Positions 54,694 to 64,000 of a DNA stretch of 64,000 nt are shown here, in pieces. A program made the position numbers and the translations under genes. Source of the stretch: Floccifex porci (GTDB lineage Bacteria > Bacillota_I > Bacilli_A > Erysipelotrichales > Erysipelotrichaceae); NCBI RefSeq assembly GCF_009696175.1, contig NZ_VUMM01000003.1, positions 62,001 to 126,000 on the forward strand, given 5' to 3'. The notes under the pieces were generated by a model. That model worked only from the letters and a program-made list of their open reading frames with translations. It ran no database searches and was not told the DNA's origin. Positions within the stretch are counted from its first letter, which is position 1. Every line of letters begins with the position of its first letter.

Positions 54694-56691
54694 CTAATCT
54701 CCTTCTTCAAATCCCAACGCTCTTAATGAGCGTGCCACTGCTTCTGTCTTCTCAAATACAGTACTCCACGGAATATCGTTTCCATAATAGTGGATTGCAG
54801 CAACATCCTCTCCTGGACAGTTCTTTTTCAAGTATTCCAGAAGCGTACATTCTGGAATCTGAATATTACGAATCATCTCAGGATAGTATCTCATCCATGG
54901 ACGATCAATACTCGGTCTGCCAGTCATTCCTTCTGGAAGCGCTTTCTTCAAAGCTTTCTTCTTGCTGCGTTTTCTTGCTGCAAGTATATCACTCTTCAAA
55001 CCGATACGATTCGTCTTGAAGTGGAAGAACGGGCGCTCTGGAAGTGAGATGATCTTTACTGGCTGCATGTGTGGATCCAGACAGCTGCGTACTTCTTTTT
55101 CAACATCTTCAACACTGTATCCATCTTCCAGCATGACATACAGGTATGGAAGGAAACACTCTTCATGCTCATCATCCGGAACTACAACAAAGAACTCATC
55201 ATCAATTCCCTCGATGTTCGCATCTGCAACACAGTTTTCCATTGGAAGTGTTGCCAGATCACCACCGCCATAGCGTGGTGCCTTTCCACGAGTCAGTGTA
55301 AACAGGTTACCTTCTTCACTCATATATCCGATGTCACCGGTATGCAGCCATATCTTTCCGTCTTCATGCATCTGAAGAGATTCTGCTGTTGCTTCCGGAT
55401 TATCATATCCTAACATCACTCCAGGACCACTGACGCAGATCTCACCCTGCTGGTTATAACTTAACTCTTCCTGTGTTCCCGGCTTAAATACACTGATTGT
55501 TGTAAGGGGAAGCGGAATTCCTACATTGCCATCTGTCATTGCACGTGTCGGTGAAGGACAGGTCAAATTAGAACCTGCTTCACTGCATCCATAAGCAACG
55601 CTGAACTGCACATTACAGTTATGATCATTCAGGAACTTCTGAGCATTTTTCACCTGCTTATTGTTGTAGGACTCGCATCCTACGCCTGAAGCCAACAGGT
55701 GGGACATATCATAATCATCCGGAACACGTCCATTTCTCATCACATTCTCGATGAACATCGGAATAATCGGCCATGCATTCGGACGATAGCGCATCATCTC
55801 AAGATCTACATCTTCCGGATCACAGAATGGATCCAGAATTAAAAGCCTATTAGATGCCATAGGCATTAATATCATAGATACCACAACAGCTATCAGTGCC
55901 GGCGGAAGGATCGTTACTAACCAAGTTGGACGGAATTCATCTGAACTAGCATAAAAGTTCATCTGATGGATCACACCGATCATCGTATGTGCAGAATGGA
56001 TGACCTGCTTGGACGGTCCGGTAGATCCACTTGTATAAGCGCGGAACAGCGGACGGTCAACATCAACCGGAGCCTCTACTCTTCCAAGATAGTTCTCCCC
56101 GAGTGATAAAAACTTCTCCCAATCCATCGTTGCACGTCCATGAGCAAGATTTTCCGGATAATTGCTGTCCAGACATTTCTGAACGTAATCCGGCATTGCG
56201 TCACGACTGCAGGAATTACAAGTGTCCAGGATAATTACTTTCTTCACATCACTTCCTGCAAGATAAGCATCTAACTCCTCCTGGCTGAGATAATCGTGTG
56301 CAAAGATTGCTCTTGCCCCTGACTTAGCGACAGCTTCTACATTTTCTTCCAGTGTATTGTCACGGCATAATAAAGATGCGCCAATCTTCTCAGCTGCAAG
56401 AAGCAGATATACAAATTCCGGTACAGAACGAAGGAATACCGGAATCTGGTCACCTTCTCCAAATCCCAGAGCCTTCAGAGAATATGCCGCAGCTTCTGCC
56501 TGTTCAAAAACAGTACTCCACAAAATTTCATTTCCATAATAGTGAATTGCTGCTACATCCTCTCCCGGACAATTTTTCTTTAAATAATCCCAAAGTGTAC
56601 ACTCCGGAATCTGTATCTTACTGATCATTTCCGGATAATATCTCATCCAAGGGCGATCGATACTCGGTCTGCCAGTCATCTTCTCATTCAT
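54694..56691 (-). CDS. ANL-superfamily acyl-AMP ligase fused to the start of a second copy
   Basis: The 665-residue product has a complete ligase module (about 1-575) with AYTSGSTGPSKQ, YGCSEAGSNLTCP, TGDIGYMSEE and a basic linker RSKKKALKKALPEG. The linker leads straight into a second start, MTGRPSIDRPWMRYYPEM, and 75 more residues ending GFEEGD before TAG. In module one the matching place reads GFGEGDQIPVF, so a CAG-to-TAG change explains the stop. The acid substrate is unknown. The gene lies 140 bp downstream of an XRE-type regulator gene that may control it. TGAGGAG lies before ATG with a wide spacing. Confidence 0.82.
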   Translation of the reverse strand: MNEKMTGRPSIDRPWMRYYPEMISKIQIPECTLWDYLKKNCPGEDVAAIHYYGNEILWSTVFEQAEAAAYSLKALGFGEGDQIPVFLRSVPEFVYLLLAAEKIGASLLCRDNTLEENVEAVAKSGARAIFAHDYLSQEELDAYLAGSDVKKVIILDTCNSCSRDAMPDYVQKCLDSNYPENLAHGRATMDWEKFLSLGENYLGRVEAPVDVDRPLFRAYTSGSTGPSKQVIHSAHTMIGVIHQMNFYASSDEFRPTWLVTILPPALIAVVVSMILMPMASNRLLILDPFCDPEDVDLEMMRYRPNAWPIIPMFIENVMRNGRVPDDYDMSHLLASGVGCESYNNKQVKNAQKFLNDHNCNVQFSVAYGCSEAGSNLTCPSPTRAMTDGNVGIPLPLTTISVFKPGTQEELSYNQQGEICVSGPGVMLGYDNPEATAESLQMHEDGKIWLHTGDIGYMSEEGNLFTLTRGKAPRYGGGDLATLPMENCVADANIEGIDDEFFVVVPDDEHEECFLPYLYVMLEDGYSVEDVEKEVRSCLDPHMQPVKIISLPERPFFHFKTNRIGLKSDILAARKRSKKKALKKALPEGMTGRPSIDRPWMRYYPEMIRNIQIPECTLLEYLKKNCPGEDVAAIHYYGNDIPWSTVFEKTEAVARSLRALGFEEGD

Positions 56692-58663: not shown

Positions 58664-60295
58664 CTATCTTGCAAGTTCCAAATACAGATCCTTATACTGT
58701 TTTGCGGAATTATCCCAGGAACAATTCTTTTCCATATCACGCTGTACCATCTTATCCCAGCACTCGCGCTCTGTGAAATACAGTGTCTTTGCTCTGTTAA
58801 TTGCATCCAGCAACAAACCAGTTTCATAGCGGTCAAATGTAAATCCATTTCCGGAGTCTTCAAACATATTATATGGTTCTACGGTATCCTTTAATCCGCC
58901 TGTCTCACGAACGATCGGAATCGTACCATAATGCATAGCTGTCAGCTGTGTTAATCCACAAGGTTCAAACTGTGAAGGTACTAATAAAGCATCTGCACCT
59001 GCATAGATCTTGTGAGCTCTTGTCTCATCGTACATAATATTAGAGCATACTCTTCCTTTATATGCATTCTCATAATAACGGAAGGAATCTTCATATTCGG
59101 CATCTCCGGTCCCCAGCACTACAACCTGTGTATGCTCGTCCATTACCTGCGGAAGGATTGCATTCACCAGATCCAGTCCCTTCTGGTTGGTCAGTCTGGA
59201 GATCAGTCCAATGACAAACTTGTGATCATCCTGAACAAGTCCCAGTTCTTCCTGTAAGTTGAGTTTATTCTCTTTCTTCTTCTCAATTACATTCGTAACA
59301 TCATAGTTTGCAAATAATCTGGAATCCGTAGCGCTGTCCCATACCTCGTAATCAATACCATTCACGATACCTCTTAACTTACCGGCATGATATCTCAAAT
59401 GCGCATCCAGAGTCTCACCATAATATGGGGTCTGAATCTCTCCTGCATATGTATTGCTGACCGTTGTGATAATGTTGGCATATGCAAGTCCGCCCTTTAA
59501 CATATTGGCATCATTATAATTTACTTTCAATACATCTTTGTTAAATACATAATCCGGAAGACCTGTCCAATATTTGATCGTTGGGATATTATAAATACCC
59601 TGGAACCGTAAATTATGGATTGTAAGAATCGTCTTCGCAGATGTCAGTTTTGTATTTTCGAACATCGTTCTCAAATATACAGGAACCAGAGCTGCCTGCC
59701 AGTCATGACAGTGAATAATGTCCGGTATCCAGTCCATATAGTTCAACGCTGCCAGTGCTGCTTTTGCAAAAAAGCAGTATTTCGGAATGTCATCGATCAG
59801 GTTCGTATACGGATTTCCACTGCTGAAAAACTCTTCATTATCAATGAAATCATATACAACGCCATCCCATACATATTCCATGATTCCTACATAGAATGCT
59901 CTGCCATCCAGGCACAGATCCATCTGGAAAGATCCTTTATATACCATCTTCTCCTGATATTTCCATGGAATGCATTTATAACGCGGAAGAATTACTTTCA
60001 CATCACAGTTCTGTTTTACCAGAGCTTTCGGAAGAGCATACATAACATCTCCGAGACCTCCGGTCTTTACAAACGGATAACACTCAGAACCGATAAATGC
60101 AATACTTTTTCTAGGTGTCGTAGGTATTTCTGTTTTTGGTTCTTCTTTCACCTTTTCCTCAACCTCTTTTTCTTCTTTAACTTCTTCTTTTTTTGCTTCC
60201 TTTGGTTCCACTTTCTTAGCTGCCTTCGGTGCCGCTTTCTTCGGCTCTTCTATCTTCTTCGGTTCTTCTGTTTTTGCTGCCTTTGGCTCTTCCAC
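58664..60295 (-). CDS. glgA: Glycogen synthase with Lys/Glu-rich N-terminal extension, 5' truncated
   Basis: The 543 residues comprise a charged repeat-like extension (about 1-65, units like EEPKKAAPKAAKK) and a full GT5 glycogen synthase. The latter has FIGSECYPFVKTGGLGDVMY with the ADP-glucose KTGGL motif, IIHCHDWQAALVP, GIDYEVWD, LISRLTNQKGLDL and VPSQFEPCGLTQLTAMHYGT. The frame stays open and in character for 22 more codons upstream (VEEPKAIKAEAAKK...) to exactly the transposon end at 60362, with no ATG. The native start was therefore removed by the insertion. GTG at 60295 is a nominal start. Catalytic parts are intact; expression is uncertain. Confidence 0.9.
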   Translation of the reverse strand: MEEPKAAKTEEPKKIEEPKKAAPKAAKKVEPKEAKKEEVKEEKEVEEKVKEEPKTEIPTTPRKSIAFIGSECYPFVKTGGLGDVMYALPKALVKQNCDVKVILPRYKCIPWKYQEKMVYKGSFQMDLCLDGRAFYVGIMEYVWDGVVYDFIDNEEFFSSGNPYTNLIDDIPKYCFFAKAALAALNYMDWIPDIIHCHDWQAALVPVYLRTMFENTKLTSAKTILTIHNLRFQGIYNIPTIKYWTGLPDYVFNKDVLKVNYNDANMLKGGLAYANIITTVSNTYAGEIQTPYYGETLDAHLRYHAGKLRGIVNGIDYEVWDSATDSRLFANYDVTNVIEKKKENKLNLQEELGLVQDDHKFVIGLISRLTNQKGLDLVNAILPQVMDEHTQVVVLGTGDAEYEDSFRYYENAYKGRVCSNIMYDETRAHKIYAGADALLVPSQFEPCGLTQLTAMHYGTIPIVRETGGLKDTVEPYNMFEDSGNGFTFDRYETGLLLDAINRAKTLYFTERECWDKMVQRDMEKNCSWDNSAKQYKDLYLELAR

Positions 60296-60361
60296 TTTTT
60301 CTACCTTTGGCTCTTCTACTTTTTTCGCAGCTTCAGCTTTTATTGCCTTCGGCTCCTCTAC

Positions 60362-60381
60362 TGTTGATTACCAAATTAATT
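60362..60381 (+). repeat. Left terminal inverted repeat
   Basis: TGTTGATTACCAAATTAATT matches the right end with one mismatch over 17 bp. The motif CAAATT recurs twice more within about 65 bp (near 60396 and 60427), resembling the serial transposase-binding sites of Tn7-like ends. Confidence 0.8.
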
Positions 60382-60475
60382 GCTAACACAGTATTCAAAT
60401 TAAATTGTACACATAATTAGGTAACTTCAAATTGTTTATACATATATATTCATATTAAATGTGAAACCCCATCAT

Positions 60476-60509
60476 AAAAAAATGGATACTCAATTTAGAA
60501 TATCCATTT
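60476..60509 (-). terminator. Terminator of the transposon operon
   Basis: AAATGGATA / TATCCATTT pair around a 12-base loop. On the minus strand they are followed by TTTTTTT, overlapping the end of the last gene. Confidence 0.75.
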
Positions 60510-60879
60510 GGTGTTGATATAAATATTTTAAGGCGTATGAAATTGAGCAGGCGCTCTTTTCACATGGTAATTTCTTATAGATTTTTTGACTGTTTTTTTG
60601 TGTTTCGTGCAAATTATCAAGTTCAACTTGGAGTGAGTTCACAAAATATGATTCATCTTCACATTCCATGAATTCATTTATTTCAATTCCTAACAGCCAT
60701 TTTAGATTGTCTTTTACTAAATGGCATAGATAAGTATGTTCTAAGTTAACGCTATCTTCAACAGTTACTTTAAAATCAACACTTCCTTCAAAATGCACTT
60801 CTTTTAATTCGGCAATTTCACTTTTTCTTGATGCGGATCCTGTTTCATATATGATCATTTGGTTTGTTTCTAATATCAT
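60490..60879 (-). CDS. Small unknown protein, last gene of the transposon
   Basis: The 129-residue acidic protein is not recognised. Its first half looks beta-rich (MIIYETGSASRKSEIAELKE, SVDFKVTVEDSVNLEHTYL) and its second half helical, with NSLQVELDNLHETQKNSQK and SACSISYALKYLYQHQMDIL. There is no zinc motif as in TniQ. GAGGTC precedes ATG, 11 bp after the ATPase stop. Position suggests a targeting or accessory role in transposition; this is inference. Confidence 0.7.
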   Translation of the reverse strand: MILETNQMIIYETGSASRKSEIAELKEVHFEGSVDFKVTVEDSVNLEHTYLCHLVKDNLKWLLGIEINEFMECEDESYFVNSLQVELDNLHETQKNSQKIYKKLPCEKSACSISYALKYLYQHQMDILN

Positions 60880-60890
60880 TCTATTGACCT

Positions 60891-61694
60891 CTAACTCAAT
60901 TCATTGTCGTTTATGGCATCCATTACAGTTTCCATACTGATTATCATTTCCTGCTTCTGCTCACCAATCAATAAACTTTTATTACAGATTTGATTGATCA
61001 TTCGAGGAATACCATTCGATGCGTTGATAATTGCGGTCAGTGCATTATTATCGAACACTTCCTGATGACATCCTACACCATCTAATTTTTCTTTTATATA
61101 ACGTTTTGCCTCTTCTTCATTTAGATTTTCTAAATTGTGTGACATGATTATACGCTGCCTTAATGGTTCATGGCTTGATAAGCGCAGCTGATTGTTTAAC
61201 TGTGGCAATCCAACCAGTAATACGACTGCATAATCTTTTGAATCCATTTCAAAATTGAACAGTATTTTTAAATCATTCAAGATCCCGCTTTTCATATAAT
61301 TAGCTTCATCAAATATAAATACAGGTGTAATTCTTTTTTCACGTTTGTATTTTTCTATAATTGTCTGAATGGCTCGGAAATTGTCGACTTTTTTATAGTA
61401 TGGTTCGATTCCAAGATTCAATGCCATCTGTCTGTAGAATTCTATAACAGTAACTGTAGACAGTGATATATATACTACCTTATAGGCGGCAGGATTCAAT
61501 TCGTTTGCCCATTGTCTTACGCTTGTTGTCTTGCCTCGGCCTGCACCTCCTGTCAATACGCCAAAGCCTTTTGTCTGCAGAAGATAATTCAATCTGAATT
61601 TCACTTCTTTATATTCATTTGTTTCTACTAAAACATCTTTTCCATTTTTTATAAATGGATTGATTTCCAATCCATATCTTCCTGTATAATTCAT
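60891..61694 (-). CDS. TniB/ExeA-like AAA ATPase of the transposon
   Basis: The 267-residue AAA+ protein has Walker A GGAGRGKTT at residues 49-57, Walker B VFIFDEANY at 125-133, a sensor-like VVLLVGLPQLNNQLR and the arginine-rich LRQRIIMSHNLENL. It resembles GspA/ExeA and TniB/MuB-like ATPases, which select target DNA and activate the transposase. It overlaps the transposase gene in TAATG, so the two are made together. Confidence 0.9.
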   Translation of the reverse strand: MNYTGRYGLEINPFIKNGKDVLVETNEYKEVKFRLNYLLQTKGFGVLTGGAGRGKTTSVRQWANELNPAAYKVVYISLSTVTVIEFYRQMALNLGIEPYYKKVDNFRAIQTIIEKYKREKRITPVFIFDEANYMKSGILNDLKILFNFEMDSKDYAVVLLVGLPQLNNQLRLSSHEPLRQRIIMSHNLENLNEEEAKRYIKEKLDGVGCHQEVFDNNALTAIINASNGIPRMINQICNKSLLIGEQKQEMIISMETVMDAINDNELS

Positions 61695-62914
61695 TATTGC
61701 CCTCCCAGCTCACTAAGCTTCAGTTTATGTCGATGCATCGTTGCATTTTTATTTTTATCCAACAGTTGAATAGGTTCCAACTCTTTTGAAATAGAATCTA
61801 CCACATATACTTTTTTCAAATCTGGTGAATAACGAATCAATAGTTTCTGTCCCTGATATTTATAGTTTACTTCATATTCCTTTTCGTCAATTACGATCAC
61901 ACTGTCATTAGATACTTTACGTTCGATTTCAAGTAAAAAGCTGCGTTCAACCTCCTGATCAGACATTCTAATAATCAATGTACTTTCTGAAAAGAAACGT
62001 TCCATCGGTGATTTTCCATTCAATGATGAATGAATGCGTTGATTATATTCCTGTACATAGGCAAACAATGATTTTCTTAATTCTTCAATATCTTTAAAAT
62101 CATTCATACAAAGCTGTGACATCCACTGATCTTTCAGAGTTCGAAACCAGCGCTCAATTTTCGCCTTTCCAGTTGGAGTTCGAGCGGGATTATAATGAAT
62201 GATTGTTCCTATTCGTGCTGCCAGAAGGTTCATCTGACTGCTTCTGTAGTTGGCTCCATTATCAAAGTTGAATTTTTTTGGCTTTCCATATTTAATGACC
62301 GCTCCACGAATCACACTCATCAGATTCACAAAATTATCGTTAAAGAATATATCGATTCCGACAATCATACGACTTGCATCATCTATAAGTGCAATAATAT
62401 AAGTCCTCTGCTTCTTTCCGTCTACTTTTAGATAAGGACCTACACTTGAATCTCCACACCACACTTCGTTTATATGTTCACATTCGTATCGCCTCATATC
62501 TTTTATAGGTGTGATTCCTTTTGAATCCTTATATTTCTGCACAAATCGATTTACTGTAGACAAAGAAACATCTTTTTTTACGATTGTATTTGTGTCAAGA
62601 AGTCTCTGGTAGACTATCGTAGCTGGAAGTTTTGGGTATTCAGACAATATATAAATAATTTGATTTTGAACATCCCCATCTAGCTTACGATATTGATTAG
62701 AATCATTTCGTGGCTTTGGGATCAATCCATCAAATCCGAATTTTAAATACCGGTTATACCACCTTCTTACTGTATGAGGGTGCACCCCAGCCTTTGAACC
62801 TGCATCTCGAAAGAAATCACTTTTTGATTTGTACGTATCTATATTTCCAGATACAAATGGTGCAATAAATCCATACCTTTTTAAAGCTATTTCCTGTGCT
62901 GTTTTATGATCCAT
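61694..62914 (-). CDS. D,D35E (rve) transposase
   Basis: The 406-residue protein has N-terminal helix-turn-helix segments (SKAGVHPHTVRRWYNRYLKF, then LSTVNRFVQKYKD). The integrase catalytic core has Asp155 (WCGDSS), Asp218 (NFDNGANY) and Glu254 (KAKIERWFRTLK), with 35 residues between the last two. A C-terminal beta-barrel part (EKEYEVNYKYQGQKLLIRYS) follows. The fold is that of TniA/Mu-type transposases. AAGGAGG precedes ATG. Confidence 0.93.
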   Translation of the reverse strand: MDHKTAQEIALKRYGFIAPFVSGNIDTYKSKSDFFRDAGSKAGVHPHTVRRWYNRYLKFGFDGLIPKPRNDSNQYRKLDGDVQNQIIYILSEYPKLPATIVYQRLLDTNTIVKKDVSLSTVNRFVQKYKDSKGITPIKDMRRYECEHINEVWCGDSSVGPYLKVDGKKQRTYIIALIDDASRMIVGIDIFFNDNFVNLMSVIRGAVIKYGKPKKFNFDNGANYRSSQMNLLAARIGTIIHYNPARTPTGKAKIERWFRTLKDQWMSQLCMNDFKDIEELRKSLFAYVQEYNQRIHSSLNGKSPMERFFSESTLIIRMSDQEVERSFLLEIERKVSNDSVIVIDEKEYEVNYKYQGQKLLIRYSPDLKKVYVVDSISKELEPIQLLDKNKNATMHRHKLKLSELGGQ

Positions 62915-62974
62915 TATAAATTTTCCTCCTTACAGCGACATAATATACAAGGAAACGACATAATTCCTCACACC

Positions 62975-63487
62975 TTATGTGGAGAGGGATAAAAAAATAT
63001 TTCTAGTGCATTTAACCTGCATAAACTGTAATGAAAAAAATTTAAAACAGCTCTTAAAAAGATCAGGATTCAATCTCATACGTTCAGACATCAGTCGCTC
63101 TTTCCAATACTTTTGAAACTGGGATCGAATATAATAATACGAATATTCATTAATTCCTTCATTCCATTCTATCCAGTCAATGAATTTATTAAGAAAGTCT
63201 GATTGAAGAGCTTTTAGATGAACTTCCAAAGCATATTGAGAATAAGGAACGATAAAATACAAAAGCACTGCATGAGTGGATTTACAACTCATACATTTAA
63301 CACGAAGGATCCGCAAAGTGACTGAATGTTTTCTGTATTTAACTTTACGAGTATAATAGCCATGTTTTTGAAAATCATGATGTTTACATTTAGGACATAT
63401 TAAGGAATACAGATTTAAAGTCTCTGTGAATTTTTTATACGATTCAGCATCTACCTGGTTGACGTTAGCCTTATAAACAGTTATCAT
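62975..63487 (-). CDS. DUF6431-like zinc-ribbon protein, first gene of the transposon
   Basis: The 170-residue protein has a zinc ribbon with CPKC near residue 35 and CMSC near residue 84, separated by a beta-rich HGYYTRKVKYRKHSVTLRILR. A helical basic C-terminal half follows, with NKFIDWIEWNEGINEYSYYY and YWKERLMSERMRL. DUF6431 proteins are known beside transposase/ATPase pairs. It may bind ends or target, in the place TniQ fills elsewhere. ATG at 63487 lacks a strong ribosome binding site. The gene ends 60 bp before the transposase start. Confidence 0.8.
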   Translation of the reverse strand: MITVYKANVNQVDAESYKKFTETLNLYSLICPKCKHHDFQKHGYYTRKVKYRKHSVTLRILRVKCMSCKSTHAVLLYFIVPYSQYALEVHLKALQSDFLNKFIDWIEWNEGINEYSYYYIRSQFQKYWKERLMSERMRLNPDLFKSCFKFFSLQFMQVKCTRNIFLSLST

Positions 63488-63506
63488 AATCTTGTTCGTA
63501 AGAGCG

Positions 63507-63638
63507 GAGAGTAAAAAGAACTCATTGGCGTGCGTTGGTTTTACTCTCTTTTCTTTTTCTCACTTTCTATAGGAAATATTATAAAAGTCATAACACATAA
63601 TTTGAATAAATTTTATTCAAACTTGTGCTATGACTTTT
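63507..63638. other. Two hairpins in the transposon right end
   Basis: GAGAGTAAAA / TTTTACTCTC at 63507-63548 encloses a 22-base loop. AAAAGTCATAACACA... pairs imperfectly with ...TGTGCTATGACTTTT at 63583-63638 over about 27 bp. They lie between the DUF6431 start and the right terminal repeat and could block read-in transcription or shape the end. No gene lies here. Confidence 0.6.
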
Positions 63639-63674
63639 TCATTTAATGTGATTAGATTATTCACTTTCATATTC

Positions 63675-63694
63675 AAATAATTTGGCAATCAACA
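63675..63694 (-). repeat. Right terminal inverted repeat
   Basis: Read from the outside on the minus strand it is TGTTGATTGCCAAATTATTT, one mismatch from the left end over 17 bp. A further CAAATTA motif lies inside near 63602. Confidence 0.8.
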
Positions 63695-63720
63695 AAAGTG
63701 AACGGAAAAGGAGGTCTGCT

Positions 63721-63833
63721 GTGGACAGTTAGGAGCGAAAAAAGCCTTGATTTATCAGGCTTCGCAAGCCCCAAACCGGGGCTGGTGGTATAAAGTATCG
63801 CCCGCCCCGGAAAACGGGCTTCTAACCGTCCAC
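63721..63833 (+). ncRNA. Structured leader upstream of repA
   Basis: GTGGACAGTTAG (63721-63732) and CTAACCGTCCAC (63822-63833) can close a 113-base structure. It contains three inner stems: AAGCCT/AGGCTT (63742-63762), AGCCCC/GGGGCT (63767-63783) and GCCCG/CGGGC (63800-63819). It ends 10 bp before the repA start, so it may control RepA synthesis. No T-run follows. Structure was judged by eye. Confidence 0.45.
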
Positions 63834-63843
63834 AAAACGCACT

Positions 63844-64000
63844 ATGACAAATACCATCTATATCCATCAGCCGGAAAAGGCGTTCAGCTTCACCCGGCTC
63901 CCGAATTTCCTCTTTGAAGCCCCCACATTCAAGCCCTTGTCCAACGAGGCAAAGGTTCTGTACGCCTTTATCCTGCGCCGGACAGAGTTATCCCGCAAGA
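63844..64000 (+). CDS. repA: Replication initiator protein A, N-terminal part
   Basis: Only the first 52 codons are inside the window: TNTIYIHQPEKAFSFTRLPN then FLFEAPTFKPLSNEAKVLYA and FILRRTELSRK. This is the RepA_N-type start found in plasmids and Tn1549-like elements of Clostridia. The base composition is clearly more GC-rich than everything to its left. A ribosome binding site is not obvious, although the preceding structured leader may matter. Confidence 0.85.
   Translation, partial: MTNTIYIHQPEKAFSFTRLPNFLFEAPTFKPLSNEAKVLYAFILRRTELSRK

Follow-up and report, generated by a model that had tools for sequence, protein, structure and literature searches.

Target choice in Tn7-like elements has been studied via TniQ and its guide-RNA versions. 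Tn5053, which has TniQ, inserts into res sites, and ISL3 elements are single-transposase elements without an ATPase. TniQ/TnsD is ubiquitous in the Tn7 branch (PMC10293859), and IS21, with its IstA/IstB pair, comprises a transposase and an AAA+ protein with no known selector (PMC10293859, PMC11208146). TGT/ACA ends are described for the IS481 family (PMC11406308) and subterminal repeat arrays for Tn7, Tn5053 and Tn552 (PMC8649781); our comparison with the latter two is drawn partly from the same sources (PMC8649781, PMC11406308).

The locus presented here comes from Floccifex porci (GCF_009696175.1, contig NZ_VUMM01000003.1, positions 62,001-126,000, forward strand); this whole stretch of 64,000 nt was analysed and is referred to as the window. 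At 60362-63694 it contains a complete transposon of 3333 bp with TGT/ACA inverted ends and four minus-strand genes: DUF6431 comes first, followed by the transposase, the ATPase and a 129-aa protein. The list of open reading frames holds no further noteworthy ORF inside these coordinates, and the transposase is present as one copy in the genome. An earlier sequence-only reading had placed the element at the same coordinates, which proved exact, with both ends defined by independent junctions. The features of the locus are as follows.

58664-60361, minus strand: left flank, glgA, split within the K/E-rich N-terminal extension (glgA is longer in relatives within the genus)
60362-60382, plus strand: terminal inverted repeat on the gene-4 side, TGTTGATTACCAAATTAATTG; three copies, each at a site of its own, share its end base
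60396-60402, plus strand: inner transposase-type site (core CAAATTA), 24 bp inward of the terminal site, offset kept
60471-60518, minus strand: hairpin and T run 3' of gene 4, probable terminator
60490-60879, minus strand: 129-aa protein (gene 4), a diverged member of a family of ~100 aa encoded after the ATPase gene in many relatives
60891-61694, minus strand: AAA+ ATPase of MuB/TnsC type, 267 aa (AAA_22, 72.7 bits), one-base overlap with the transposase gene
61694-62914, minus strand: D,D35E transposase, 406 aa (rve, 48.9 bits), invariant triad
62975-63487, minus strand: gene 1, DUF6431 protein (PF20020), 170 aa, zinc ribbon C31, C34, C65, C68 plus helices
63583-63638, minus strand: long hairpin just inside the gene-1 end, putative read-through terminator or insulator
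63644-63650, minus strand: inner transposase-type site (CACATTA), 34 bp inward of the terminal site, offset kept
63674-63694, minus strand: gene-1-side terminal inverted repeat TGTTGATTGCCAAATTATTTG, break against eight uninserted copies of the flanking element
63695-64000, plus strand: right flank, integrative mobilizable element (repA/mob), upstream of repA

At the left end, homology between the window copy and two near-identical copies with different neighbours, L034 (JALFSR010000031) and L074 (G073), ends at one and the same base, the last of ...GGTAATCAACA. On the right, the flanking mobile element serves as reference: in other genomes eight copies of it read GCAGAAAACAGAAAGTGAACGG uninterrupted and without an insert, and the window sequence departs from them at precisely the inverted repeat's ACA. 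Both junctions are thereby fixed to the base. The inverted ends TGTTGATTACCAAATTAATTG and TGTTGATTGCCAAATTATTTG (complement, from 63694) are alike at 16 of the first 17 bases and at 19 of 21 overall. The sequence at 60362-63694 is a small intact DNA transposon that has been mobile recently. Each end carries more than its terminal site: the subterminal core (CAAATTA, at most one mismatch) recurs at fixed offsets of 34 bp on the gene-1 side and 24 bp on the gene-4 side in five of six divergent elements, compared with a maximum of three reached in 500 shuffles. In the window copy the predicted transposase sites are 60372-60378, 60396-60402, 63644-63650 and 63678-63684. A strong hairpin with a T run lies immediately inward of the gene-1 end; 10 of 11 elements have it in the same place with unrelated stem sequences, and it is likely to form a barrier to read-through from the host.

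The catalytic residues of the transposase, D155, D218 and E254, are invariant in 16 relatives and keep the spacing of 35, confirming the D,D35E enzyme of the sequence-only reading. Its best NCBIfam model is that of IS481 (NF033577; 166 bits, below the cut-off of 224), the IS21 model reaches 58.5 bits (cut-off 160), and among solved structures the transposase profile finds TnsB of ShCAST first (2e-24). For the ATPase profile MuB is the best match in the PDB (4e-10), followed by VchTnsC and ShTnsC with weaker values (3e-4 to 6e-4), and PHROG 296, a DNA transposition protein, is matched at 3e-24. These profile matches agree with the Mu/Tn7-like type proposed before. The ATPase, which had been read as an overlapping TniB-like protein, does overlap its neighbour by one base and appears to be an AAA+ protein of MuB/TnsC type, but no TniB or IstB model of Pfam matched it. 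As the transposase stays under the IS481 and IS21 cut-offs and the ATPase is without a TniB or IstB match, the functions of both, and with them the Mu/Tn7-type assignment, are to be read as remote homology. A domain search found no TniQ among the four genes, as expected from the earlier reading; the genome likewise yielded none, in a search whose controls gave no signal either.

Among the described systems phage Mu resembles the element in combining a DDE transposase with an AAA+ activator (MuA/MuB) without TniQ, and provides the best solved relative of the ATPase. In contrast to Mu, the four genes within 3333 bp include no phage structural genes, the end sequences are the element's own, relatives show duplications of 5-8 bp, and DUF6431 and the fourth gene are present. 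With Tn7-like elements and CASTs (TnsB/TnsC/TniQ) it shares TGT/ACA ends, several transposase sites per end and the match to ShCAST TnsB; the ATPase profile also finds TnsC, but scores better on MuB. It lacks TniQ/TnsD, TnsA and cargo, and the 5-bp duplication of Tn7-like elements stands against 5-8 bp in the relatives in genome G262 and none in the window copy; by the TniQ criterion it is not a Tn7-like transposon. IS21 is similar in its two-protein system of transposase and AAA+ without a known selector, IS481 in being the top NCBIfam match and in its TGT/ACA ends; yet the IstB match is missing, and unlike IS481 the element has constant neighbours (DUF6431, ATPase) and multi-site ends. Judged by the curated cut-offs of their models, it would belong to neither family. 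Tn5053 and Tn552 likewise have a transposase, an ATPase and subterminal repeat arrays, and insertion into features of other mobile DNA (res sites for Tn5053) is a further likeness; the element differs in having no resolvase and no TniQ, which Tn5053 has, and in target positions that are scattered within the genes entered. We class the element and its relatives as a variant of the type made up of a DDE transposase plus an AAA+ activator, without a TniQ-type selector.

The order DUF6431-transposase-ATPase is common to about 25 relatives with transposase identities of 31-72%, and the three core genes are conserved from the element's own order as far as Geobacillus. There, a plasmid copy has an inverted repeat matching at 18 of 20 positions, a 6-bp duplication and no fourth gene. 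A DNA search of a plasmid collection did not find the element, and the family was undescribed in the open literature searched. The sequence-only reading had tied its proposal to the conservation of the first and last genes in copies that still move: gene 1 is present in every copy where the sequence is available, and gene 4 is swapped or missing in some.

The two flanks of the window copy belong to different loci, the N-terminal coding region of glgA on one side and the repA/mob element on the other, and since they do not match there is no target-site duplication. The right-flank mobile element terminates next to the 3' end of guaA, beyond the window, and its remaining part is absent from the assembly of 44 contigs. 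Such flanks could have arisen by recombination between copies, by an adjacent deletion or through mis-assembly. In G262, copy L201 has its left flank in common with L231 and its right flank with L232, and duplications are also missing from L202 and L203; these mixed or duplication-less copies make exchange between copies, deletion and mis-assembly all possible for the window copy. We rate it at somewhat under even that metagenome assembly wrongly joined glgA to the mobile element at the transposon: a single copy with two unrelated flanks, a genome in 44 contigs and a missing part found nowhere in the assembly all fit an error, whereas the mixed flanks of L201 are what recombination between copies predicts, even if they too could stem from assembly.

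Genome G262 contains 33 full-length copies of 3321 bp that are identical over the first 800 bp compared, which points to a recent burst. Target duplications of 5-8 bp were found for 30 of these 33 copies, with 6 bp the commonest length, and for 6 of 7 copies in G118. When the insertion sites were compared, as had been suggested earlier, the duplications of the G262 copies showed no consensus; what emerged instead was an excess inside other mobile elements. In G262, 12 of 27 unique sites fall into genes that belong to other insertion sequences; of 34 random positions taken at even spacing in 400 kb, one does so (Fisher p 9e-5). The genes entered comprise five TnpB, two IS1182, two IS66, two IS1380 and one IS4, as identified by running family models on representatives. 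An annotation-free test in the same 400 kb, based on coverage by another repeat, gave 8 of 27 sites versus 79 of 1500 (p 5e-5). In G118, five of seven sites are within mobile-element genes, and by reading of translations single copies were found within tnpB (L034), an ISL3 transposase (L074), a tyrosine recombinase (L061) and an IS4 transposase (Geobacillus). Positions within the entered genes are scattered.

The excess could reflect biased insertion or the purging of insertions from host genes. Purging of harmful insertions is general among insertion sequences, and we give a nearly even chance to the reading that selection is the whole explanation, insertion being random and copies in useful host genes being lost. 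This is in keeping with targets that have no consensus and with the host genes that were entered too, named from their translations as mnmE, luxS and 6-phosphogluconate dehydrogenase; however, the burst is recent, and purging would have to remove most host-gene insertions to produce an excess of this size. IS1380 was of no use as a selection control in G262, as there are too few intact copies, and the same applies to the other IS there. No self-insertion occurred among the 33 G262 copies, whereas the insertion density in other IS genes predicts about six; the probability of finding none is 0.0009 at that density and 0.69 if insertion is uniform, and the estimate thus depends on the insertion density assumed. 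The smallest gap between G262 copies is 9.3 kb (P 0.08). A stronger proposal, which we regard as rather unlikely, is that this TniQ-free Mu/Tn7-type family actively steers into other mobile elements and spares its own copies, the ATPase together with DUF6431 and/or the exchangeable fourth protein responding to some feature of mobile-element DNA or of proteins bound to it. An active bias would represent a distinct route to safe targets.

The DUF6431 protein matches PF20020 with 42.2 bits (gathering cut-off 26.6), and its cysteines C31, C34, C65 and C68 are conserved in relatives. Weak matches fall on the N-terminal regions of transposases (ISH6, 6e-6; structure of ISCth4, E 0.15, not significant). 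A search of the PDB with its AlphaFold2 model (pLDDT 70) returned the ISCth4 transposase at the top, nothing significant and no match to TniQ, and a TniQ-like structure was rejected for this protein. In the open literature searched DUF6431 is named in a single paper, merely as a neighbour gene. Of 295 genomes of the order, 62 contain it, and at many loci it lies directly upstream of an ISL3 transposase without an ATPase, including one in the F. porci genome itself (G000:C13). In these ISL3 elements, too, a gene of this accessory family precedes the transposase gene, but their transposase is unrelated (NF033550) and an ATPase is missing. Given that ISL3 elements need a single transposase, DUF6431 is not specific to the ATPase-driven system; rather than substituting for TniQ, it probably serves as a general accessory protein that binds DNA. 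One accessory protein links two unrelated transposon families. It had been suggested that the zinc-ribbon protein may take over target choice; on this reading it would bind target DNA through the ribbon and recruit the ATPase in place of TniQ. Its first position in every copy with sequence there, and a zinc ribbon with predicted helices as in TniQ, in an element that itself has no TniQ, would suit such a role. The ISL3 loci, the missing consensus among target sites and the absence of a TniQ match for its fold speak against it, and we consider it quite improbable.

The fourth protein of 129 aa scores 22.9 bits against a profile of seven homologues from the same slot in relatives, while the best of 2000 shuffles reaches 8.9. 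It has no relative in Pfam, NCBIfam, PHROG or PDB. The structural search proposed for it was run with a predicted model of four strands and two helices (pLDDT 68) and gave no significant relative in PDB or BFVD; as a TniQ-like protein it was rejected by the same comparison. The ~100-aa family occupies the slot after the ATPase in many relatives, but a TIGR04540-like protein is found there in G262 and G092 and short ORFs in L035 and L007, and the gene is missing in L006 as well as in the Geobacillus copy. Diverged pairs show dN/dS < 1 for gene 4, yet the highest dN among the genes of the element; between L009 and L053 the fourth protein is 49% identical and the ATPase 87%. By these comparisons the slot is exchangeable and the ~100-aa family fast-evolving. 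An exchangeable module after the ATPase gene might govern target choice or confer target immunity. It is in this position that Tn7-like elements have their selectors, gene 4 evolves fastest, and unrelated small genes such as the TIGR04540-like one replace it in other copies; nevertheless, the elements of G262 and G118 have mutually unrelated fourth genes and both favour mobile elements, two copies do without the gene, and it has no structural relative. We hold this role to be possible with considerable doubt.

Taken as a whole, the observed ends, sites, duplications in relatives, gene conservation and target statistics are probably best explained by a transposon of the Mu/Tn7/IS21 superfamily that is self-contained and carries no cargo, for which we infer the following steps. 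At each end the D,D35E transposase would bind one or more subterminal sites in addition to the terminal one (spacing 34 bp and 24 bp); it would then pair the ends and join them to target DNA with a stagger of 5-8 bp. The MuB/TnsC-like ATPase would capture target DNA, activate the transposase and keep it away from the element's own copies. No TniQ-type selector would take part: targets share no sequence, but sites are unusually frequent in other mobile elements. DUF6431, of a family common to ISL3 elements, would act as an accessory zinc-ribbon DNA-binding protein, probably end-binding or regulatory, and the fast-evolving fourth protein as an exchangeable modulator of ATPase or transposase, while the terminator inside the gene-1 end would block read-through from the host. 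With an ATPase and a transposase but no TniQ, two accessory genes, mapped ends and one genome with 33 fresh insertions, this 3.3-kb family allows one to ask what the ATPase alone can choose as target and offers a simple model for how Mu/Tn7-related transposons pick insertion sites.

In five relatives the transposase is split by an insert; a group II intron was considered and ruled out, as the insert encodes three tyrosine recombinases.

In five relatives of the window's transposon, which share its gene order of DUF6431, transposase and ATPase, the transposase gene is interrupted by an insert of 3-4 kb (L068, L069, L070, L071 and L050-L052, from genomes G096, G112, G110, G092 and G120). The insertion point lies at or just before the codons for the catalytic motif K-x-K-I-E-R. 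Where complete, the inserts encode three tyrosine recombinases of the recombinase-in-trio type and have palindromic ends like TTATGTGGAATTCCACATAA. The catalytic motif of these transposases seems to be the target of a site-specific element. On G092:C1, the ATPase gene of a relative is broken by a 519-aa IS transposase-like ORF (L071:12318-13994).

Small proteins encoded after the ATPase include one (L035:2878-3057) whose last residues, DDLPF, resemble the C-terminal tip through which bacterial single-strand binding proteins recruit factors for replication and repair. A 169-aa ORF in L118 ends in EELPF. In genome G262, with 33 copies of a related element, the copies at 2342037, 2413043 and 2484049 of G262:C1 have the same flanks and are spaced by exactly 71,006 bp, reflecting either a 71-kb tandem triplication or an assembly artefact.

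The window's genome carries a second DUF6431 gene (G000:C13:3805-5787, locus L075), immediately upstream of an ISL3 transposase. The right flank of the window's transposon is a mobile element of the following kind:

L033:5696-12015, integrative mobilizable element adjoining the 3' end of guaA

It contains repA and a mobilization gene, encodes a serine recombinase and a tyrosine integrase, and has a MazF-like gene with a pemK RNA motif in front of it. Several genomes have close copies of the repA-mob part. Elsewhere in the window, a 665-aa AMP-binding-type ORF (54694-56691) has an N-terminal sequence, MTGRPSIDRPWMRYYPEMI, that recurs near its own C-terminus; this repeat is a tandem duplication in which the ORF continues into a second copy that is cut short.
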